Source: Gammaproteobacteria bacterium (GTDB lineage Bacteria; Pseudomonadota; Gammaproteobacteria; SZUA-229). From it: a stretch of 64,000 nt of DNA. The position numbers and the translations under genes were made by a program. The notes under the pieces are model-generated. The model had not been told where the DNA came from. It saw nothing but the letters and a program-made list of their open reading frames with translations, and did no database searches. The DNA is taken from positions 18,059-82,058 of the forward strand of contig JADGFA010000013.1 of assembly GCA_016744065.1 (NCBI GenBank), in the 5' to 3' direction. This document shows positions 11,841-63,622 of the stretch, piece by piece (the first letter of the stretch is position 1; every line of letters starts with the position of its first letter).

Positions 11841-14534
11841 TCAAGCTAAGCTATCAAGTAGTTTGTTTATCTTATGCTCAAAATTACGTTTAAATTTTAA
11901 TATGTGGTTAATCTGAATATCATCACGATCATCAACATTAAACACCCTCAATGGCACATCAATATCCGTTATATAAACAGGGAGCCTGCCCTCTCTGGTC
12001 ATTTTCACTAACATATACTGCACACACTCCGTTAATACGTCCTGTTTAAAATTTTTATATAAAAATTCATGACCATTGCATATAAGATTAAGCTGATCGC
12101 CATCGGCACTTCCATTAATACTTACCTGTATATCATAATAGTTTTTGTTAGCTGATACTGCATCTGGACCTATAATATAAAAATCTACACCACCTAATTG
12201 ATTAATACTAATCTGATTAATTTCTAATGCAGGCAAATCACGTTCCTGGTAGTTTATTTTTTTTAATCGAATTAAAATATTTCTAAAAAAATATAACCAG
12301 TGGGTAATATAGCTTTCACGTTCATATACAGTTAAAACATCTACCAGTAACGCACCCTTTTCACCAACAGCCCAACTATGAAGATCACCATTAATTATCT
12401 GAAAAAAAACCTGTAAGACATTTTTTTTATTATTTCTATAAATTTCACGCAATGGATAATCAGGATAGGCCAACCGTTCCAGCGCCGTATCATGAAATAC
12501 CTCGGAAGCAGTTTCAAGATAGTCAATTAAGTCACGTTTTTTTCCTATTTTAGAATATTCTAAAAATGATTGTTCAACAATTATCACATAATATTCTTCT
12601 CCCATTCTAAGAACAAAACGCCCATCATCCTTGCGCTCTGAATAAAAATATGCCTGCATTTCAGAATAAATCTGCTCAATCCGTTGTGCCACATAAGTAC
12701 TGTCACCCTCCCCATGACCAAAAATAAAAATATCCTGTGGCCTGGCTAATTCACTTAATGGCGCATGATGGGTCCATTTACACAAACAGTTTAAAATACC
12801 AGCATCACCTGAATACTGTTTTATACTGACATCACCCCAGCTATTAATAATCAATTGCTCACAATGCATCACTATATTTTTTAACTGATTAGAAAAATCA
12901 AACGACGCCTCCACAGAAGGAATCTGTGCATTATTTATTGCAGAAAAATTAATAAATAAAAGTGATTGCAACGGCTTTACTGAATTTTCAAAGGCAACCG
13001 CAGGTATATTCAATAATAAGTCAGGTTTCAACTGTTGAATCAATATCTCTAAAACATAATGCGCTTCAACCTGCTTTACCTGTTGACCCAGGCTTTCAAC
13101 AGACACCTGAGTAGAATGATTTACCACTCTATTTAACCAGCACCAGGCCAACAAGCCCAAAAGGCTATTAAACCCCTCGACACTTCTCTCATTACCTTCT
13201 GATATTTCTAACACCAGGCTCCATCGAGTTATACCTTCAACAAGCGCCTGCTTCAAATGAATACGATCAAAAATAATATCTGTTTTATTTTTATTGTTAT
13301 AAAGCGGAATACGATCATCACCACCAGATAAAAAAACCAGCATATTCTGAGCAACTGAAGCCAGTGATTTATCCTGATCAGAAACGTGAAGCTCTCTGTT
13401 GTACTGTGTGACTACGCCTGAAAACACCTGATATACTTCATGCGATACTGCTTTAAAAAAATTAAGATATGAAATAATACCTTCAAGACCTGGCGCAGCC
13501 GACTCATAGGTATAATCATCCTGTAAAAATGCTTGAATTAATTGTTGATTAAGCTTTCCTGGTGTATTTTTTAACCGTGAAAACAACCTAACAGGTGTGA
13601 GAACATGATCTTTTTCAGAATAGTGGCTGAAGACCTCATGCATCAAATCTGCCATGATATCAACTGGCTTCATACCTGACTCACCTGTATACATTAACCG
13701 TTTTAAACGAATAGAAACCCCATCAAGCTCAGGCCAGAATGTACTTCTTTGAGCCGTTATCAATAACTTTACCAGGCAAACTTCCGATGATTGCTTTATT
13801 TTTTGAACTAGATCAACAGCCTGTTTTACAATATCATTGCGATTAAACTCCGCCACACTACCTAAATCAATAAACTCTTCAACATCAACAAATCTAACCT
13901 GCTTAATATGCTTTACAAAGTCAACATACTCCTTATCTTTATCTGGCGGAACCAACCACCACACAGGGTATTTACCTGCTAACAAAATAGCTTCACTATA
14001 GAATCCATCAAGAAATATTGATTTATTACCTGTATTAATTTTTCCCATTTTGTTTTTTACAAAATCATCGACTGACAGGCATATAAAATTTATTTTTTCT
14101 CCTCTGGCTAAAAACCATTGATCAATTTTATTTATTTTCTCTTTTAATAATGAAAGTTGATTTTTATTTAATGAGGGGCGATAAAATATCCAGCAGCTAT
14201 TAACGCCATCAATTAACTGCTGATGAAAGTAAACGGCATCTATAGCATAATGTTTAACCACCCCTTCTTGTTGATAGCGAAACTTATCATTTAATGATCT
14301 GGCATCATTTATTGCATTTTTATCTGGTTTATAAAGAAAGATACCCGTAGGTGTATCAGGGTCAGCATAACCAGGTAATAACTTGTTATTTAACTGTAAA
14401 AAAAGAGGGATAAGTTGAATATATTTATAAGAATCATCGCCAATTATTTCAGGTAATCGTTCATATTGTGCAGCATTCCAGCTTAAATAAGCTTGTCTGG
14501 CATCTGCTACCTGAATTTTATTTTCAATTTCCAT
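11841..14534 (-). CDS. class I adenylate cyclase homologue with degenerate active site
   Basis: 897-residue protein aligning by eye along its length with E. coli CyaA. Shared landmarks include P-G-Y near residue 55, G-I-F-L-Y (about 64-68), F-L-D-G-F-Y and L-L-A-G-K (about 175-190), and W-C-W-L-N-R. The nucleotidyltransferase signature of CyaA (a G-S...S-D-x-D-x-W pattern) is not present. The equivalent stretch at about residues 101-115 reads V-Y-F-H-Q-Q-L-I-D-G-V-N-S-C-W. The tryptophan aligns, but both catalytic aspartates are replaced (Val and Ser). A non-catalytic or regulatory role is therefore likely. Its start overlaps the response-regulator gene by 11 bases, so the two are co-translated. 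Confidence 0.75.
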   Translation of the reverse strand: MEIENKIQVADARQAYLSWNAAQYERLPEIIGDDSYKYIQLIPLFLQLNNKLLPGYADPDTPTGIFLYKPDKNAINDARSLNDKFRYQQEGVVKHYAIDAVYFHQQLIDGVNSCWIFYRPSLNKNQLSLLKEKINKIDQWFLARGEKINFICLSVDDFVKNKMGKINTGNKSIFLDGFYSEAILLAGKYPVWWLVPPDKDKEYVDFVKHIKQVRFVDVEEFIDLGSVAEFNRNDIVKQAVDLVQKIKQSSEVCLVKLLITAQRSTFWPELDGVSIRLKRLMYTGESGMKPVDIMADLMHEVFSHYSEKDHVLTPVRLFSRLKNTPGKLNQQLIQAFLQDDYTYESAAPGLEGIISYLNFFKAVSHEVYQVFSGVVTQYNRELHVSDQDKSLASVAQNMLVFLSGGDDRIPLYNNKNKTDIIFDRIHLKQALVEGITRWSLVLEISEGNERSVEGFNSLLGLLAWCWLNRVVNHSTQVSVESLGQQVKQVEAHYVLEILIQQLKPDLLLNIPAVAFENSVKPLQSLLFINFSAINNAQIPSVEASFDFSNQLKNIVMHCEQLIINSWGDVSIKQYSGDAGILNCLCKWTHHAPLSELARPQDIFIFGHGEGDSTYVAQRIEQIYSEMQAYFYSERKDDGRFVLRMGEEYYVIIVEQSFLEYSKIGKKRDLIDYLETASEVFHDTALERLAYPDYPLREIYRNNKKNVLQVFFQIINGDLHSWAVGEKGALLVDVLTVYERESYITHWLYFFRNILIRLKKINYQERDLPALEINQISINQLGGVDFYIIGPDAVSANKNYYDIQVSINGSADGDQLNLICNGHEFLYKNFKQDVLTECVQYMLVKMTREGRLPVYITDIDVPLRVFNVDDRDDIQINHILKFKRNFEHKINKLLDSLA

Positions 14535-15270
14535 CAGGTAAATACCGGTTTAATCGTTCTTTAAAGCTGCCCGACTTAACCGGTTTTGTAAGGTAATCAT
14601 CTGCACCTGCGGCCAGGCTCTTTTTCACATCAGCCACATCTGAGCTTGCTGTCAACATAACAACAGACGTTTTCCGCCAACTTGATTTACTACGAATTTT
14701 CTCTACCAGTTGTATCCCGTTTTTATTTGGCAACCCAATATCCATTAAAACCAGGCGTGGAGGAAGCATTTTATTGAGTAAATTATATGCCTTGATCCCA
14801 TCATCTATTTCTATAACTTCCACATGATTGCTGGATAATATTTTTTTTACCATAACACGAATAGCTGGATCATCCTCTACCAACAATACAACTCTGGAAA
14901 TCATATACTTGAAAAACTGCTTTTGAAATAACGCAGAATGATAAGGCTTTACTGCATAACCAGATGCCCCACTATGCCTGGCTTTTTCTATTGCTGTTTT
15001 GTTTTCAACACTGCTAACCAGCATCATAATATATGCATTACTTCCTGCTTCTGTTTTTTTTATTTCACGACAAAACTCAAAACCATTTGCATCACTCAAT
15101 TCGCTATCAATTATTATAAGAGTAATTTCATTTTTATTATTGTTTGATTTTATTATATCACGCGCTGATTCAGCTGAATTCGAAATAGCAACAGACTCAA
15201 ACCCTGACTCATAAAAAACTTGCCTGATTTTATTTTCAGGCGTTTTTTCAGAATCAACAATTAAGATCAT
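14524..15270 (-). CDS. response regulator with two receiver domains
   Basis: 248 residues made of two REC domains and no output domain. REC1 (about 1-120) has the phosphoacceptor D55 and K108. REC2 (about 125-245) has acidic E132-D133-D134, phosphoacceptor D177 (L-V-L-M-D-I-G-L-P-N) and K229. Both look competent for phosphorylation. No kinase gene is adjacent. It is upstream of, and overlaps, the adenylate-cyclase homologue. The simplest reading is that its phosphorylation state controls that protein through direct contact, but that is inference. Confidence 0.85.
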   Translation of the reverse strand: MILIVDSEKTPENKIRQVFYESGFESVAISNSAESARDIIKSNNNKNEITLIIIDSELSDANGFEFCREIKKTEAGSNAYIMMLVSSVENKTAIEKARHSGASGYAVKPYHSALFQKQFFKYMISRVVLLVEDDPAIRVMVKKILSSNHVEVIEIDDGIKAYNLLNKMLPPRLVLMDIGLPNKNGIQLVEKIRSKSSWRKTSVVMLTASSDVADVKKSLAAGADDYLTKPVKSGSFKERLNRYLPDGN

Positions 15271-15296: not shown

Positions 15297-16529
15297 TTAA
15301 CTGGTCGGAGGTTTAACTCTTGATAAAACAATTGCGCCAACGATAAAAAGCAATAACACTGAAAGTATAGAGTAACGGTGATTCTCTGTTATCAACGCAA
15401 CCCCACCCATCATAACTGGGCCAATTATGGCTGCGGATTTACCTAACATATTATATATACCAAAATATTCTGCTGTCTGCCCCTGTGGAATCATACGGGC
15501 AAAATACGAACGACTCATCGCCTGAACACCACCCTGCACCAGACCAATTAACACCGCCAGCACATAAAAATCAGTTGCTGTACTCATAGTATAGCCAAGC
15601 CAGGTTATGGCTGCATATACACCTATACCAGCCATTAATGCATTTTTAACACCAACACGATTGCCTATATACCCATATAGTATAGCGGCAGGAAAACCGA
15701 CAAATTGAGTTATTAATAATGCCTGTATAAGCTCCCCCGTATCAAACCCCAGAGCCATACCATAATCTACAGCCATACGAATAATAGTATCTACCCCATC
15801 TATATATATCCAGTAAGCAATTAAAAACAGACGAGTTTGCCGATTGCTAAAAACTGTTTTGAATAATTTGAAAGTTTGTAATGTTATATTTTCATTATTA
15901 ACTGGATTCTTCTGATATATATCCTGCGTCCAGAATGCCAGTGGTAAACTAAAAACCAACCACCATATTGCAACCATGATAAAACACAGCAGCACCACAT
16001 CTATTGCATGGCTATAACCTAGTAGCTCAGGTTGCTGGCTGAATACAACACACAATGCCAGTGTGATTCCTCCACCAAGATACCCCATGCCATAACCAAA
16101 ACCAGAGACCTTATCAATCTGAGCATCAGCACATACGGGTACAAGTAATGCATCATAAAATACATTTGCCGACATAAATCCAACTGTTGCTATGACATAA
16201 AGGCATAATGCAAATATCCAGTCACCCTGATGAGCAATATAAAACATACCGGTGGAAACAACACCCAATATCATAAAGCCAAGCAACAATGGTTTTCTTA
16301 ACTTTAATCTGTCACCTATAACACCCAGAAAAGGCGCTAGAAAAACAACGATTAAACTCGCAGAAGCATTGCCCATACCTAACCAGAATGTATTTTCTGA
16401 ATCGCTTAAACTCGATGCCCAATATGATTTAAATACGACTGGAAAGAAACCTGCAATAACAACTGTAGCAAAAACAGAATTTGCCCAGTCATAAAAAGCC
16501 CAACTGATAATAGATTTATTTTTATACAT
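15297..16529 (-). CDS. MFS transporter, Atg22/UMF1 type
   Basis: 410 residues with about 12 hydrophobic helices. The start motif W-A-F-Y-D-W-A-N-S (about residues 10-18) is the hallmark of the UMF1/Atg22-like branch (PF11700) of major facilitator proteins. G-D-R-L-K-L-R-K-P-L follows helix 2, as the MFS loop motif requires. The ATG at 16529 sits five bases after a GGTGGGGG stretch. A TTG six codons upstream is possible but less likely. Substrates of this branch in bacteria are unknown; fungal Atg22 exports amino acids from vacuoles. It follows the MCP gene on the same strand. Confidence 0.82.
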   Translation of the reverse strand: MYKNKSIISWAFYDWANSVFATVVIAGFFPVVFKSYWASSLSDSENTFWLGMGNASASLIVVFLAPFLGVIGDRLKLRKPLLLGFMILGVVSTGMFYIAHQGDWIFALCLYVIATVGFMSANVFYDALLVPVCADAQIDKVSGFGYGMGYLGGGITLALCVVFSQQPELLGYSHAIDVVLLCFIMVAIWWLVFSLPLAFWTQDIYQKNPVNNENITLQTFKLFKTVFSNRQTRLFLIAYWIYIDGVDTIIRMAVDYGMALGFDTGELIQALLITQFVGFPAAILYGYIGNRVGVKNALMAGIGVYAAITWLGYTMSTATDFYVLAVLIGLVQGGVQAMSRSYFARMIPQGQTAEYFGIYNMLGKSAAIIGPVMMGGVALITENHRYSILSVLLLFIVGAIVLSRVKPPTS

Positions 16530-16659
16530 AACAACCCCCACCAACAAAGCTCAGTGGTGCCCCTGTTTATTTTTATTTTAACTGAATTTGAATTAGATAC
16601 TGGCTTCAGTATATCATTGAGCTTATTTACATTATATTTATAATAAATTTTATCTGTTA

Positions 16660-17931
16660 TTAAAACAATTCAACGTTATCAGCCCGTGTACTGTTTTCTT
16701 CATTACTCTGAATAACAGGCGTACACTCCTGTTCATCATCAATAGAAACATTTTTTCCACCGACCATAATACTCAGTTGGTCGCCCATTTTACCAAGCTC
16801 CATACTCTCTGAAATAAGCATATTAGTTTTAGAAATAGATTCCTGAGATGATTCTAAAATTGATTTTAAACTATTTGAGGCGACTTCAACCGAACTTTGA
16901 GAATCCAGAGTAGACTCAAGTAAATGCTTGGAGTGTACAGAAACCTCAACCATTAACCCGACTATCTCAGAATACGACATAACAACACCTTCCATTAACT
17001 CATCAGCTTTGTCTGCCTGTTTAACACTGTTATTTATTACCGTAACAGCCCTGTCTACATGCTTTAGTAGCACATTAATAATTTCATTAATTTTTTGTGC
17101 TGATTCCTGCGTTTTATTTGCCAGGGAACGAACCTCATCAGCAACCACGGCAAAGCCTCTACCCTGCTCGCCCGCTCGCGCAGCCTCAATTGCGGCATTT
17201 AAAGCCAGTAAATTAGTTTGTTCCGCAACCCCGGTAATCACCTCTATAATACTGCCAATAGATTTACTATCTTCTCCCAGTCTTTCAATTATTTCACCCG
17301 CATCATTAACAGATTCAGCTAATAACATGACACCGGTAATCGCCTCTGTCATAACCTGTTTACCACTGGCTCCCTCCTTCTCAGACTTATTTGACAACTC
17401 ATGCGTACTTTCAGCCACATTACTCGCAAGATCAACAGCAGCCTGCAACTCATCAATAGTTACCTGCACCTGTGCGGTACTAGATAGCTGTTTTTGCATA
17501 ATATCAGCTATTTCACCAGATACCCCTGTGAGGCTTTGTGCCTCTTCCCCAAGGCGCGAAGCTACATCACTAAATAAACTACGATTTGTTACTGCTGATA
17601 AAACAAACTGATTGTAGTTTTCACTAAAACGGATAACGGCCTTACTGCGAAGGTTCGTTTTTAACTCACTTTCTGGTATTTCCCCCTGTAAATAGGTCTC
17701 TGCAACACCACATACCTGTTGAAACATTAAATTGTTTGCCTGGCGATTCAAGATACCGATTACAATAGGAAGTATGACTGCTGTTATGCTGCAAGCTGAT
17801 ATAAAAACAAGCTGATCGGCTGACACATTACCCGCTAAACTAACTAAACTCACAAATACCAGACAACAACTAACAACGTAAACCCCCCAAATAACTAACC
17901 GCTGACTGATTAACGAAACAAGCTTATCCAT
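16660..17931 (-). CDS. methyl-accepting chemotaxis-type transducer
   Basis: 423 residues. Two transmembrane helices sit close together near the N-terminus (about residues 12-35 and 38-58), with almost no periplasmic sensor between them, then a long cytoplasmic coiled coil. The signalling hairpin tip is intact ([16 protein letters not shown] and [12 protein letters not shown]). The short N-terminal part suggests it senses membrane or cytoplasmic cues, or works through a partner. The ATG at 17931 follows AGGGGTGAGT. A GTG two codons earlier overlaps that ribosome site. No che genes are adjacent. Confidence 0.88.
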
Positions 17932-18066
17932 ACTCACCCCTGAAATTAAAAACCAAGCCTAAAACCAATAAATAGCACTCTCTGATGACATCGTGCTTTA
18001 TATTTCTGTATAACTACTAAATAATAGTATATAAATGGGGTTATCTAATAAAAATATGCCTGAAAG

Positions 18067-19579: not shown

Positions 19580-21181
19580 TTATACCTCGCTCACTCCATG
19601 TTCACGGGTAGCCAGGAATTGAACTTCAGGATAGCGTTCCTGAGTCATATCCAGGTTTACTCGTGTTGGCGCAATGTATACCAGATCACCCGCATGGTCT
19701 AATGCCAGGTTCGATGCAGTTTTACTTTTAAATTTAGCCAGAATTTTTTCATCATTACAAATAACCCAGCGTGCTGTTGTTACATTCACATGCTCAAAGG
19801 TACAGTCCACCTTGTATTCATGCTGCAGCCTATGTGCAACCACATCAAACTGCAGAACACCCACTGCCCCCAAAATTAAATCATTATTATTTAACGGCTT
19901 ATAAAGCTGGGTTGCTCCTTCCTCACAAAGCTGCATTAAGCCTTTTTGCAGGGCTTTCATTTTTAACGGGTCACGTAACTGTGCACGACGAAATAACTCA
20001 GGCGCAAAATTTGGGATACCGGCAAACTGTAAATTTTCACCATTTGTAAAGGTATCACCGATGCGTATTGTTCCATGATTATGTATACCAATAATATCGC
20101 CAGCATAGGCTTCATCGGTATGGCCACGATCAGATGCCATAAAAGTCATCGCATCATTTAGCTTTATATCTTTTTGAATTCGCACATGTTTTGCTTTCAT
20201 GCCTTTTTCAAATTTACCCGAACAAATGCGCATAAATGCAATACGGTCACGATGCTGTGGGTCCATATTCGCCTGAATTTTAAATACAAAACCCGTGAAT
20301 TTTTCTTCTGTTGAATCAACAAACCTTGCGCCTGCATCACGCCCCCTGGGCTGGGGAGCAAACCCATCCAGAGAATCCAGTAATTCTTTAATACCAAAAT
20401 TATTAATTGCTGAGCCAAAAAATACGGGGGTTAACTTACCTTCACGATAAGCTTGCAAATCAAACTCATGACTTGCACCCTTAACTAATTCAATTTCATC
20501 TCGAAGCTCAGCAGCCATAGACCCTAACTTCTCATCCAGCTCCGGGTTATCTAAACCCTCTATTATTTCACCTTCAAGAATTTTGCCACCATGAGTCGCA
20601 CTGAACAGATGAACACAGTTATTATATAAATGAAAAACACCTTTAAAACTTTTACCCATACCAATTGGCCAGGTCATAGGTGCGCACCGAATATCTAATA
20701 TATTTTCTACATCATCAAGCAGATCAATTGGGTCACGTGCCTCACGATCCATTTTATTTACAAACGTCAGGATAGGCGTATCGCGCAGACGACACACATC
20801 CATTAATTTGATAGTCCGCTCCTCTACCCCTTTCGCAGCATCTATCACCATTAAGGCGGAATCAACCGCGGTTAAAGTTCGGTAAGTATCTTCTGAGAAG
20901 TCGGCATGACCCGGCGTATCCAATAAATTAATAATACAGTTATTATATGGAAACTGCATAACCGATGAAGTAACCGAAATACCCCGTTGTTTCTCCAGCT
21001 CCATCCAGTCAGATGTTGCATGACGTGCAGCTTTACGGCCTTTAACCGTGCCTGCTGTCTGGATCGCTCCACTAAATAGCAACAGTTTTTCAGTTAAGGT
21101 TGTTTTACCCGCATCCGGGTGGGAGATGATAGCAAAAGTGCGTCTCTTCTTGATTTCATTGAGAAAATTGCTATCTACCAT
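19580..21181 (-). CDS. prfC: peptide chain release factor 3, with element-derived N-terminus
   Basis: 533-residue translational GTPase that recycles RF1/RF2 after termination. The P-loop S-H-P-D-A-G-K-T-T lies at residues 20-28. G3 D-T-P-G-H-A-D-F and G4 N-K-M-D are intact, and RF3-specific C-terminal domains follow. The first 20 codons and the start codon belong to the inserted element, not to the chromosome: a similar but different 5' end of prfC (M-S-E-I-L-E-Q-M-Q-R-R-R-T-F-A-I-V-S-H-P-D) lies 29 kb to the right at 50273. Expression now depends on element sequence upstream. The start has no well-placed ribosome site (AAGGG is only one base away). Confidence 0.94.
21117..21124. other. left attachment core in prfC codons S-H-P
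   Basis: GGGTGGGA is identical at the right end (50215-50222). On the left it encodes the S-H-P part of the functional RF3 P-loop. Around it the two ends stay similar (GCAAAAGT also shared), as expected for an element that mimics the gene it enters. The exact strand-exchange position within the core is not known. Confidence 0.7.
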
Positions 21182-50381: not shown

Positions 50382-52265
50382 CTAAAATCGGTACTGGAAA
50401 TCAAATACCAGCCTGAAAGAATCATCTGGTACGCTAATACTGTCATCACTAAACTCATCCTTAACCGGGACAGCAAACTGCAAATTTCCGCTGATATGAC
50501 GCCCATAGCCATATTGAACGCCAATTCCTACATCCGCGAGTGTCCCATCATTATCCTCATCCCCCTCCAATGCATACTGAACGCCATGGGATGCATTTAA
50601 AAAGAAAAAAGGCTGCATTTTCTGTGAGATATCACGCTCACGAAAATAATCAAACATAAATATCTGAGGGGAGTTAAATACCCATTCCAAACCCAAATAT
50701 AAGGAGCTATCACCCGAGAACTGATTTATCGGGAAAGCCCTGACAACCGTGGGGCCAGCTAATGCTGATTGCTCTGCCGCGGGTAATGGCTGATCTGTAA
50801 GCTGTAATTCAGCTTTCAAGATTAAACGTGTAACAACATCCAGTCCGGGAATAGTAAAAAAGCCTAAAAGATTATAATCTGCATTCATTTTGTTATAGTC
50901 TTCATCCTGACCTTCCGCCTGACCAAAATCAAAACTTCCACTGGTTATTCCAAATGACCCCAGGTGCAATAATTTATCTTCTGTATCTAAAATATCAAAT
51001 TGCCCACGTAAACGTATATTCTTTATTTTATCGTCCAGACCCAGGTTACCAAACTCATCACTATCCAATATAGTTTTGGTTGTATTAAACGTTAAATACG
51101 CCCACCAGCTCATTTCCCGCGAGCGTAATATTGAATAATCAAAAACTAATTCTGCCTGTTGGGTCTCACCTTTAATACCTATCTGGCTAACAGTTGAATC
51201 GGTGTTTGTACTTTGATCAATAGCAAACTGATTACTGGAAACACTCACACTGGCAAAGAGTTTTTTCTGCCAGACAGGAACACGATAACCTAACAGACCA
51301 TAGGTAGAATTATCGGGTGATGAAGATTGCAACAAAGCCAAAGACAACTGATCGGCTATATTTGCAGGATTGTTCCAGTAAAATTGATAAAATGCCCTGA
51401 TTTTTCCTGTTGAATCCGCACCATGATTATCCAGACGAAGGGTATGATCAAATTCATTCTCAGAAACAGCACTTAAGTTTAACCGAGTATCGCCAACCTG
51501 ATCCCCAGCTTCAAAAGTACCCGATATGGCAAGCCCGGGCAGATCATTTAAAAGAAACATACGCTCTTCTATAAGATCAAACTTCACCGGTATATACATC
51601 ACATCATGAAATGCTGAACGAATAATATCATCGCTGTATAACTCATTTTCAAGCACCTCAACCTCACCCAACTTACCATTTAACACCGTTATCACCAGCA
51701 CACCATCACGCATAGCCTGCCGAGGCACAAACGCCGTTACCAGCCCCATACCCCGTTCACGGTAATATTCTTCTACCTCATAAGCTATATTTTCAATTTC
51801 CCCTAAACTTAAACCACGTTTTTCTTTTTGCTCTCGCACTAACCAGATAAATTTTTGCAAATCAGGCGTAGTGACATGATCAAACTGCCTGGTAACATCA
51901 ATTGTATTTAATAAATCTAATATTTCAGCAATTTCTTCATCGGTATAACCATGTGCACGCAATTTATCTTCTCTCATTATTGCATGACGACGATCTTCAA
52001 TGTGCTTGATTATATCCTTGCGAAAAATACCCAGCTCAGGATAATCACCAATACCCTGCAATCGAATTTCTTTCACCCATAAACGCGGGCCACTTTCAGT
52101 ATCTGGATTTCGATAACGAGTACTGGGTATATTAATATTTTCATAAACCGATGAACCATGTAATGTACTAGACTCAACCACTTCCGGCATTTCAACTATG
52201 CCAGCAAAAGAAGTTGCAGTAAAAAACATGAATAAAAGAGAGTATTTTTTCAAATGAGATTTCAT
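50382..52265 (-). CDS. two-partner secretion transporter TpsB (ShlB/FhaC type)
   Basis: 627 residues. Signal peptide about 1-21, then a POTRA domain (L-W-V-K-E-I-R-L-Q-G-I; Y-Y-R-E-R-G-M-G-L-V-T-A-F-V-P-R-Q) and a 16-strand barrel ending in R-F. It exports the TpsA exoprotein across the outer membrane. The first POTRA contains a long charged helical insertion (about residues 95-145) not usual for the family. It lies downstream of tpsA on the same strand, 1.2 kb away, with repeats and a GIY-YIG gene between. It was the upstream neighbour of prfC before insertion. Confidence 0.9.
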   Translation of the reverse strand: MKSHLKKYSLLFMFFTATSFAGIVEMPEVVESSTLHGSSVYENINIPSTRYRNPDTESGPRLWVKEIRLQGIGDYPELGIFRKDIIKHIEDRRHAIMREDKLRAHGYTDEEIAEILDLLNTIDVTRQFDHVTTPDLQKFIWLVREQKEKRGLSLGEIENIAYEVEEYYRERGMGLVTAFVPRQAMRDGVLVITVLNGKLGEVEVLENELYSDDIIRSAFHDVMYIPVKFDLIEERMFLLNDLPGLAISGTFEAGDQVGDTRLNLSAVSENEFDHTLRLDNHGADSTGKIRAFYQFYWNNPANIADQLSLALLQSSSPDNSTYGLLGYRVPVWQKKLFASVSVSSNQFAIDQSTNTDSTVSQIGIKGETQQAELVFDYSILRSREMSWWAYLTFNTTKTILDSDEFGNLGLDDKIKNIRLRGQFDILDTEDKLLHLGSFGITSGSFDFGQAEGQDEDYNKMNADYNLLGFFTIPGLDVVTRLILKAELQLTDQPLPAAEQSALAGPTVVRAFPINQFSGDSSLYLGLEWVFNSPQIFMFDYFRERDISQKMQPFFFLNASHGVQYALEGDEDNDGTLADVGIGVQYGYGRHISGNLQFAVPVKDEFSDDSISVPDDSFRLVFDFQYRF

Positions 52266-58915: not shown

Positions 58916-59695
58916 TTAATTTTTAGTTAAGACGACGGCACGTCCTCGATTACCATCAGCCGCCATTAACACAAGCGTTCCATTTGTATCGCCTTCTGTC
59001 CAGGCCAGGCCAGTATATGTCCCTGCTGACACAAAACAACCTCCTCCCCCCCCATCACTAATTAAATTAACTGCATACACATTAACCGAAGCTTCTATCA
59101 GACCAAAATCCCCTGTAAATCCACAATCAGCGCCATCACCTGAATCACCACTGTTTACAGCAATAACCCCATCACTACCAATATTCAATGTCATAGTCGC
59201 ATTTGAACCCGCTACAAAAATTCCCGACCAGGTCCCAGAAAGTCGACTTAAATCTGAACCCTTAGCATAAACAGAGGGTGTAGTATTAAAAACCATCGTT
59301 CCAGTCAGGTTAGACACTGATTCAACAAAGTCCACAGAGGCTGATGTCCCTGCAACATAACTTCCCTCATAAGTAATTGTATTTATACCAGAACCAGCAC
59401 CGCTGTATCTCTTTCCTGTACCAGCTAAAGATACCGTCTGATCGGTTAAATTAGCATCAAATAATTGCGATACACCATCTAAGTTATTTGATAACACCAT
59501 CATTCGGTTATTATATATAATGGCTTTTTCTTCAAGTCCATTAAACGTTGAATTTCCCCCTGTAATATTCCCTGTATAAATCCCATTCGGCGAAGTCACC
59601 GAACTTCCACCATCACTACTACATCCGGTTAACATAAAACCTGATACCACAACAAGAGCAGAAACTAACGATTTAATTCTAAAGATTTTTTCCAT
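58916..59695 (-). CDS. lipoprotein paralogue 1
   Basis: 259 residues from M-E-K-I-F-R-I-K-S-L. Signal peptide with lipobox F-M-L-T-G-C, then S-P-N-G-I-Y-T-G-N-I-T-G-G and a C-terminal pattern A-W-T-E-G-D-T-N-G-T-L-V-L...V-V-L-T-K-N, seen in all three paralogues. Beta-rich, possibly outer-membrane surface exposed. It lies upstream of tpsA in the same direction, 36 bases before its start. Family not recognised. The ATG at 59695 was chosen over one 7 codons upstream because a GGGGCG precedes it. Confidence 0.75.
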   Translation of the reverse strand: MEKIFRIKSLVSALVVVSGFMLTGCSSDGGSSVTSPNGIYTGNITGGNSTFNGLEEKAIIYNNRMMVLSNNLDGVSQLFDANLTDQTVSLAGTGKRYSGAGSGINTITYEGSYVAGTSASVDFVESVSNLTGTMVFNTTPSVYAKGSDLSRLSGTWSGIFVAGSNATMTLNIGSDGVIAVNSGDSGDGADCGFTGDFGLIEASVNVYAVNLISDGGGGGCFVSAGTYTGLAWTEGDTNGTLVLMAADGNRGRAVVLTKN

Positions 59696-59716
59696 TTTCA
59701 AACGCCCCGAGAGCAT

Positions 59717-61588: not shown

Positions 61589-62389
61589 TTAATTTTTAGT
61601 TAAGACTACGGCACGCGCTTTATTTCCATCAGAAGTCAACAGTACCAGTGTTTCATCCGCAGCACCTTCTGTCCAGGCCAGACCACTAAAGGTACCCGCA
61701 CCTAAATCACAGACAATCACCTGATCCCCTCCATCACTTATCAAATTTAATGAATACACATTAACTGCTGAATCAAGAAGACTGAATGTGCCTGTAAAAC
61801 CACAACTCGAACCATTACTATCAATACTTGAAGCCACATCAATCATGCCATTGGCATTAATAGTAAGTGTCATCACTTTACCAAAACCTGAATCATAAAT
61901 ACCTGACCACGTGCCACTTAATCTGACCAGATCTGAACCTTTCGAATATATTGCTGGACTGGCCGTTAAATTTATCGTGCCTGGAGTTAATGTAACTGTA
62001 CCCGTTGTCTGCTCCACAAACTCAATGCTAGCAGAGCTTCCACTTACAAATGTCCCATCAATGATTAAATCATTTAGCTTTGATGGAAACGGAGAGTAAT
62101 TTGCGCCTGTTCCTGCAAGCGATACACTGGCATCAACCACTTCCATATCAAATATTTGACTTACACCATTAGAGTTATTTGATAACACCATTATACGGTT
62201 ATTATATATAACTGCTTTCTCTTCAAGCCCATTAAACGTTAAATTCCCTCCAGTAATACTCCCGGAATAAATCCCATTCGGCGAAGTCACCGAACTTCCA
62301 CCACCACTGCTTCCACAACCGGTTAACACAAGGCCAAGTACCACAACAGCAGCAGAAACTAACGATTTAATTCTAAAGATTTTTTCCAT
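61589..62389 (-). CDS. lipoprotein paralogue 2
   Basis: 266 residues from M-E-K-I-F-R-I-K-S-L. Lipobox V-L-T-G-C, then the shared S-P-N-G-I-Y-S-G-S-I-T-G-G and V-V-L-T-K-N ending. It differs from copy 1 mainly in the middle. It was duplicated together with flanking sequence on both sides (see findings). Confidence 0.75.
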   Translation of the reverse strand: MEKIFRIKSLVSAAVVVLGLVLTGCGSSGGGSSVTSPNGIYSGSITGGNLTFNGLEEKAVIYNNRIMVLSNNSNGVSQIFDMEVVDASVSLAGTGANYSPFPSKLNDLIIDGTFVSGSSASIEFVEQTTGTVTLTPGTINLTASPAIYSKGSDLVRLSGTWSGIYDSGFGKVMTLTINANGMIDVASSIDSNGSSCGFTGTFSLLDSAVNVYSLNLISDGGDQVIVCDLGAGTFSGLAWTEGAADETLVLLTSDGNKARAVVLTKN

Positions 62390-62712
62390 TTTCAAACGCC
62401 CCGAGAGCATGATTTATTAAATTTCAGAAAATACTAGCAAAATACGGCTTATAAGGCTACAGAGAACTACTTAAAGTGAGAAGCAATATAATAAAGTTTT
62501 TTAAAAAACAATGAGTTAGCTTTTTAAACCCATGTTAAATTTCTAAAAATCAGGCTAATCTTGAACGAGAGTAAAGCACCTGCTACTACAAAGTAACAGG
62601 ACAGAGTGTGACACCTGATCCTTCTACTTCTACTTCGCTCAGGATGACAGAAATATTTTATTTATCAATTTTCGTCAACAATTAATACTCTTAAAATCAA
62701 TATTTAAAGACA
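62390..62712. other. 323-base gene-free stretch with repeat half
   Basis: The first part duplicates 59700-59880. Near 62618-62650 lies a single half of the palindromic repeat (GATCCTT...CTTCGCTCAGGATGACAG). No gene seen. Confidence 0.7.
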
Positions 62713-62833: not shown

Positions 62834-63622
62834 TTAATTTTTTGTTAAGACTACGGCACGTCCTCGATTACCATCGGCCGCCATTAACACAAGCGTTCCA
62901 TTTGTATCACCTTCTGTCCAGGCCAGGCCAGTATATGTCCCCGCTGATACAAAACACCCAAACGCACTACCACCATCACTAATTAAATTAACCGCATACA
63001 CATTAACCGAAGCTTCAAGTACGTTAAAGGCACCAGTAAACCCACAATCAGCACCACCACCTTGATCACCACTACTTCCACCAATAACTCCACTAGCATC
63101 AATATTTAAAACCATCTGCGAGCCCACAACAAAAGTACCAGTCCATGTTCCAGCTAACCGACTTAAATCAGACCCTTTTGAATACAACGAAGTACTTGCA
63201 ACTAAATTCATAGTTCCAGAAGGCAAGGTTATAGCTCCTGTAGTTAATTCAGTAAAGTTAACTACAATACTTTGTCCCGAAGAGAAAGAACCATCATACC
63301 CAACCTCATTAAGATCAACGCCTGATGCACCATATCTCATTCCTGTACCAGTCAATGATACAGTTGATTCTGATAAATTATTATCAAAAATTTGAGATAC
63401 CCCATCTGCCTTATTTGACAAAACCATCATTCTGAAGCCATAAACAATCGCTTTTTCTTCTATACCATTTGAAGAAACATCCCCCCCCGTAATATTCCCT
63501 GTATAAATCCCATTCGGCGAAGTCACTGAACTTCCACTGTCACTACTACAACCAGTTAACACAAGGCCCGATACCACAACAGCAGCAGAAACTAACGATT
63601 TAATTCTAAAGATTTTTTCCAT
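62834..63622 (-). CDS. lipoprotein paralogue 3
   Basis: 262 residues with lipobox V-L-T-G-C at about 25 and the shared S-P-N-G-I-Y-T-G-N-I-T-G-G and A-W-T-E-G-D-T-N-G-T blocks. Its C-terminal third is nearly identical to copy 1, but the middle is diverged. AGGATATTTTAA precedes the ATG. Upstream sequence differs from copies 1 and 2, so it may be the oldest. Confidence 0.75.
   Translation of the reverse strand: MEKIFRIKSLVSAAVVVSGLVLTGCSSDSGSSVTSPNGIYTGNITGGDVSSNGIEEKAIVYGFRMMVLSNKADGVSQIFDNNLSESTVSLTGTGMRYGASGVDLNEVGYDGSFSSGQSIVVNFTELTTGAITLPSGTMNLVASTSLYSKGSDLSRLAGTWTGTFVVGSQMVLNIDASGVIGGSSGDQGGGADCGFTGAFNVLEASVNVYAVNLISDGGSAFGCFVSAGTYTGLAWTEGDTNGTLVLMAADGNRGRAVVLTKN

Follow-up and report, generated by a model that had tools for sequence, protein, structure and literature searches.

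Can the body of a class I adenylate cyclase be kept under selection after its catalytic site has been lost, and for what use? The question arises from one gene in the window, the whole stretch of 64,000 nucleotides analyzed here. A sequence-only reading had described its product (P0001) as a dead CyaA homologue coupled to a regulator made of two receiver domains. The gene and its upstream neighbors are arranged as follows.

15297..16547, minus strand: MFS transporter gene (Atg22-like; PF11700), upstream and on the same strand
14524..15270, minus strand: two-receiver gene (P0002, 248 aa; two PF00072 matches)
11841..14534, minus strand: pseudo-cyclase gene (P0001, 897 aa; PF12633 and PF01295, lost catalytic residues, dN/dS 0.10-0.19)

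The P0002 gene precedes the P0001 gene and shares 11 nt with it, and a gap of 26 nt separates the MFS gene from the two-receiver gene. Given this gap and the common strand, the three genes look like a single operon as far as gene arrangement can indicate, with the MFS gene probably first. The order MFS-(REC)-cya recurs in relatives. Across the genera of family f1, to which P0001 belongs, the common layout is valS, a gene for 184 aa, cya, (REC) and MFS, with the MFS gene upstream at every locus where it is visible. The chemoreceptor-like gene at 16660-17937 (MCPsignal) is the fastest-changing of the region, with 51% identity to locus L027 compared with 92% for valS.

Elsewhere in the window, a probable genomic island (21200-50380) lies between prfC (19580-21181) and a TpsB-like gene (50382-52265). 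It carries restriction-modification-like genes, a relaxase-like gene and two integrase-like genes, all named from their translations. In genome G003 (locus L029) prfC directly adjoins the TpsB-like gene. Three similar lipoprotein-like genes (58916-59716, 61589-62410 and 62834-63622) stand in tandem, downstream of a very large gene whose product resembles a secreted protein.

Homology to CyaA along the length of P0001, as first proposed, was borne out by Pfam matches that cover both domains, PF12633 (1e-25, 91 bits) and PF01295 (4.9e-15, 55 bits), both above the curated cut-off of 27 bits. By sequence family P0001 accordingly belongs to the class I adenylate cyclases. Both halves are also matched by NCBIfam models for class I cyclases, with scores far under the equivalog cut-off. 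The parts of P0001 to which the following results refer are listed below.

14181..14234, minus strand: degenerate active-site segment, residues 101-118 (alignment; 6-residue deletion relative to E. coli CyaA)
13740..14252, minus strand: nucleotidyltransferase-like domain, about residues 95-265 (model pLDDT near 80; Foldseek)
11844..13322, minus strand: C-terminal half, residues 405-897 (10/14 invariant positions kept; pLDDT 74)
11952..11969, minus strand: T-D-I-D-x-P motif, residues 856-861 (column counts; common to motif-bearing class I cyclases)

P0001 was aligned with CyaA of E. coli K-12 and, from across the class, 94 homologues bearing G-S...S-D-x-D. These 95 reference rows were chosen by that motif, and its columns are therefore invariant by construction; R188, K260, K264 and D300 lay outside the row filter and are still invariant in 95/95 motif-bearing rows. 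P0001 resembles E. coli CyaA in its homology over both domains and in keeping invariant residues of the fold core and C-terminal part, but differs in having lost G-S, S-D-x-D, R188, K260 and D300, with the G-S loop deleted. All five motif residues are replaced: at G102, S103, S113, D114 and D116 (E. coli numbering) P0001 has Q, Q, G, V and S (its residues 105, 106, 110, 111 and 113), and six residues are missing. Among the four positions outside the filter, only the Lys at 264 stays. Several of these residues were reportedly identified by mutagenesis of E. coli CyaA in work by Linder in 2008. The proposal that both catalytic aspartates and the G-S motif had been replaced was thus confirmed by the alignment, and the view of P0001 as a class I cyclase body that lacks the catalytic site is supported.

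The six-residue deletion takes out the G-S loop in f1, and in the P0001 model (pLDDT 65 as a whole, near 80 in this part) strands 98-105 and 112-118 are joined directly. Foldseek placed the N-terminal domain with the nucleotidyltransferases AAD(9) (probability 0.96) and ANT(3'')(9) (0.92), at E values that are not significant. As judged from the alignment, residue loss is centred on the catalytic region, since f1 retains 12/40 positions there that are invariant in motif-bearing enzymes compared with 10/14 in the C-terminal part (all residue types; Fisher 0.011). Among polar invariant positions between E. coli residues 100 and 332, f1 retains 3/22.

It might be argued that enzymatic activity persists, through a rebuilt active site or as a different nucleotidyl transfer reaction, and a relocated site had been among the initial suggestions. 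W118, K136 and, mostly, K264 are retained in f1 and D857-x-D859 is conserved, which would suit such an activity. However, column counts gave no conserved relocated G-S...D-x-D in f1, the loop that carried G-S is deleted, and the conserved acids of the N-terminal domain (D176, E181, E220 and E251) make no D-x-D pair among them. The sole conserved D-x-D in f1, D857/D859, is also found in motif-bearing enzymes and is, on these columns, ancestral. Relocation is therefore not borne out, and persisting activity of either kind is considered improbable.

The loss is shared by relatives. The class I N-domain was found in 10/54 genomes of f1, every one with a dead site, and was absent from the other 44; no intact class I gene was detected in the 54 genomes. 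Chance or a frameshift is ruled out as the cause, since ten genomes show the identical loss. No second class I homologue was detected in the genome of P0001 by either Pfam domain, so the search for an intact cyaA elsewhere found none. Second, more distant f1 homologues were observed in two other genomes. One (G003, L042:5113-7716) carries the six-residue deletion common to P0001 and no catalytic motif; on account of that deletion it probably arose after catalytic loss. The other (G013, L038:46-2250) is cut off ahead of the active site. Outside f1 the motif was present at 100/105 loci across the class, and the five exceptions comprised two fragments without an N-domain, one pseudogene (G414) and two open frames, in G212 (family f3) and G141 (family f89). 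A contig scan with a single protein as query gave no match, and a second contig scan yielded eight loci from uncultured MAGs.

If P0001 were the decaying remains of a cyaA now lost, this would account for the 44/54 f1 genomes without a cyclase and for the f3 copy in G414, which contains stops. The full-length open reading frames at a common locus in several f1 genera argue against decay, as does dN/dS near 0.1. Between f1 orthologues dN/dS was 0.10-0.19, values that are indicative since dS is near saturation; in f3 it was 0.075-0.136, and about 0.12-0.14 in close pairs, where dS (0.24-0.31) is unsaturated. Neighboring genes in the same comparison gave pN/pS from 0.05 to 0.45. Based on the low dN/dS in both families, P0001 and its homologues are judged not to be relics; that explanation is largely refuted and very unlikely. 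Loss of catalytic residues together with purifying selection identifies P0001 as a pseudoenzyme. Bacterial pseudoenzymes are a known kind and likewise keep a fold under selection once catalysis is lost (PMC10211241).

A second family, f3, provides a comparison. An N-domain match was found in 48/57 of its genomes, chiefly in frames of about 880 aa, and at the loci inspected the arrangement was purH-[cya]-argC with no two-receiver gene near the cyclase. All 19 full-length rows (L191-L209) lack G102, R188, K260 and K264; S103 is lost in 18/19 and D114 also in 18/19. Position 116 is D or E in 18/19 rows and position 300 in 19/19, and L200 retains D-F-D, not G-S. From these columns f3 is degenerate, but less thoroughly than f1, and the acids at 116 and 300 together with D-F-D in L200 make residual metal or nucleotide binding possible. 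The same acids are the contribution of f3 to the case for persisting activity.

Family f89 is represented by one genome (G141), in which G-S is kept and D-x-D lost. Its cyclase gene (L210:1903-4602) adjoins a lysA-like gene, a frequent cyaA site, and is possibly a recent loss in place. Trees separate the motif-bearing enzymes (support 99 and 95) from f1, f3 and f89, among which long branches meet, and an AU test did not reject f1 and f3 as one clade (p 0.55). A single clade of all three, with the attendant long-branch risk, is allowed by the trees. The remains of the site differ (six residues deleted in f1, D/E at 116 in f3, G-S in f89), and these different remnants favor separate catalytic losses.

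Whether the dead protein still serves cAMP signaling can be asked first in the source organism. Its genome encodes four domains of class III cyclases, in all of which inspection by eye found the Asp residues expected at the metal site, and a CRP whose pocket reads GEAGLF...ERSA, Arg-Ser being present. These domains and pocket residues suggest ordinary cAMP signaling here without class I, with cAMP probably made by the class III cyclases and acting via CRP. Such a genome would suit a role for P0001 in regulating, as their partner, class III cyclases to which cAMP synthesis had passed, like a pseudoenzyme controlling an active relative. Against that role, the f3 protein persists although a class III cyclase is missing from 55/57 f3 genomes, and a partnership of this kind is rated as rather improbable, slightly more so than persisting activity. 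For the same reason, replacement by class III enzymes was rejected as a full account: it suits the source genome and fails in f3. A CRP homologue occurs in 50/57 f3 genomes, and four f3 CRPs, all from a single genus, have Arg-Met, not Arg-Ser, in the cAMP pocket. Considering the degenerate sites and the near absence of class III, the f3 protein appears to survive where cAMP synthesis by either class seems absent. Since the dead form is kept under selection, and in f3 is conserved in genomes mostly without class III enzymes, a retained function other than cAMP synthesis is probable. The CyaA fold thus appears to have a second job without need for cAMP making, as the site is lost yet relatives are under selection in at least two families.

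The C-terminal half is the better conserved part of P0001 and may carry this function. Its model consists of repeated three-strand-plus-helix units. Foldseek returned weak actin-like or RNase H-like matches (best E 0.002, low TM), so that any such resemblance of the modeled half is faint and not significant. No match to P0001 or its relatives was obtained when solved structures were searched by sequence.

P0002 consists of two receiver domains only.

14911..15270, minus strand: REC1 (degenerate acidic pair D6-S7; six-orthologue alignment)
14524..14898, minus strand: REC2 (E132-D133-D134, D177, T207 and K229 invariant in six; canonical)

REC1 keeps D6, S86 and K108, but Ser7 replaces the second acidic residue in 6/6 orthologues, and in REC1 of L029 the phospho-acceptor is replaced by Asn. 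Judged by the acidic pair, acceptor Asp, Thr/Ser and Lys, REC2 qualifies as a receiver in 6/6 and REC1 does not. The initial description of two intact receivers and nothing else thus stands for REC2 and for the absence of any further domain, not for REC1.

The gene pair was sought in relatives, and a P0002 orthologue was found in 6/10 f1 genomes that carry the dead cyclase and in 0/44 that do not (Fisher 8e-6, relatedness ignored). It adjoins the cyclase gene in all cases, with the 11-nt overlap at three loci. Adjacency and co-occurrence are both as expected of a receiver-effector pair, although, since the test ignores relatedness, the association may reflect ancestry. Genomes G002, G006, G008 and G018 carry the dead cyclase without the receiver gene, and three such loci, when searched for a receiver remnant, gave none that was convincing. 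Because these four genomes keep the cyclase alone, the two-receiver protein is accessory and not essential to the pseudo-cyclase. The coupling proposed in the sequence-only reading is consequently upheld by overlap and distribution, and limited by the genomes that do without it.

These facts can be arranged in two ways. The pseudo-cyclase may have a binding role of its own, with the two-receiver protein a mere operon neighbor that does not touch it; the two may act for the MFS transporter encoded upstream or have only their expression in common. The four genomes without the receiver gene fit this arrangement, as do f3, with no such gene nearby, and the MFS gene upstream at all loci in view. 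It is harder to reconcile with a receiver that never occurs without the cyclase, is always adjacent and overlaps it at three loci, and we regard it as a real but lesser possibility. In the explanation we prefer, and to which we give an even chance, P0001 is a pseudo-cyclase that binds chiefly by its C-terminal half and is receiver-gated in some genera. With the nucleotidyltransferase site gone, the remaining body would be kept to bind a partner or ligand. P0001 and P0002 would bind each other, an unlinked histidine kinase would phosphorylate REC2, and this phosphorylation would alter the binding or location of the pseudo-cyclase. Where the receiver gene is absent, the pseudo-cyclase might act by itself or use a different receiver.

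In Pseudomonas aeruginosa, the Chp system influences the cAMP that CyaB produces. Its receiver protein PilG, which has no DNA-binding output, is linked with a cyclase pathway (PMC10519157), and P0002 is similar in being a receiver protein without DNA-binding output associated with a cyclase. The cyclase there is an active class III enzyme, whereas P0001 belongs to class I and is dead; the receiver there is part of a chemosensory system, whereas here a two-domain receiver lies in the gene cluster of the cyclase. The open-access literature, a scope that leaves out most subscription journals, yielded no account of a class I cyclase with a dead site; both the conservation of such a protein and its association with a two-receiver partner appear to be new.

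The broader proposal, somewhat short of an even chance and offered tentatively, is that the class I body is a signaling module that outlives catalysis: a degenerate CyaA kept for a function independent of cAMP in at least two gammaproteobacterial families and, in one of them, the output of a dedicated two-receiver switch. As matches to the cyclase families, the proteins described here are easily misread as cAMP producers, and some genomes may be credited with a synthesis that they do not have. The retained C-terminal half hints at an unrecognized function of this region of CyaA, and since the body is here naturally split from catalysis, C-terminal function can be probed by a simple deletion. 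If the proposal is true, the C-terminal half of ordinary CyaA would have a role beyond regulating cAMP synthesis.
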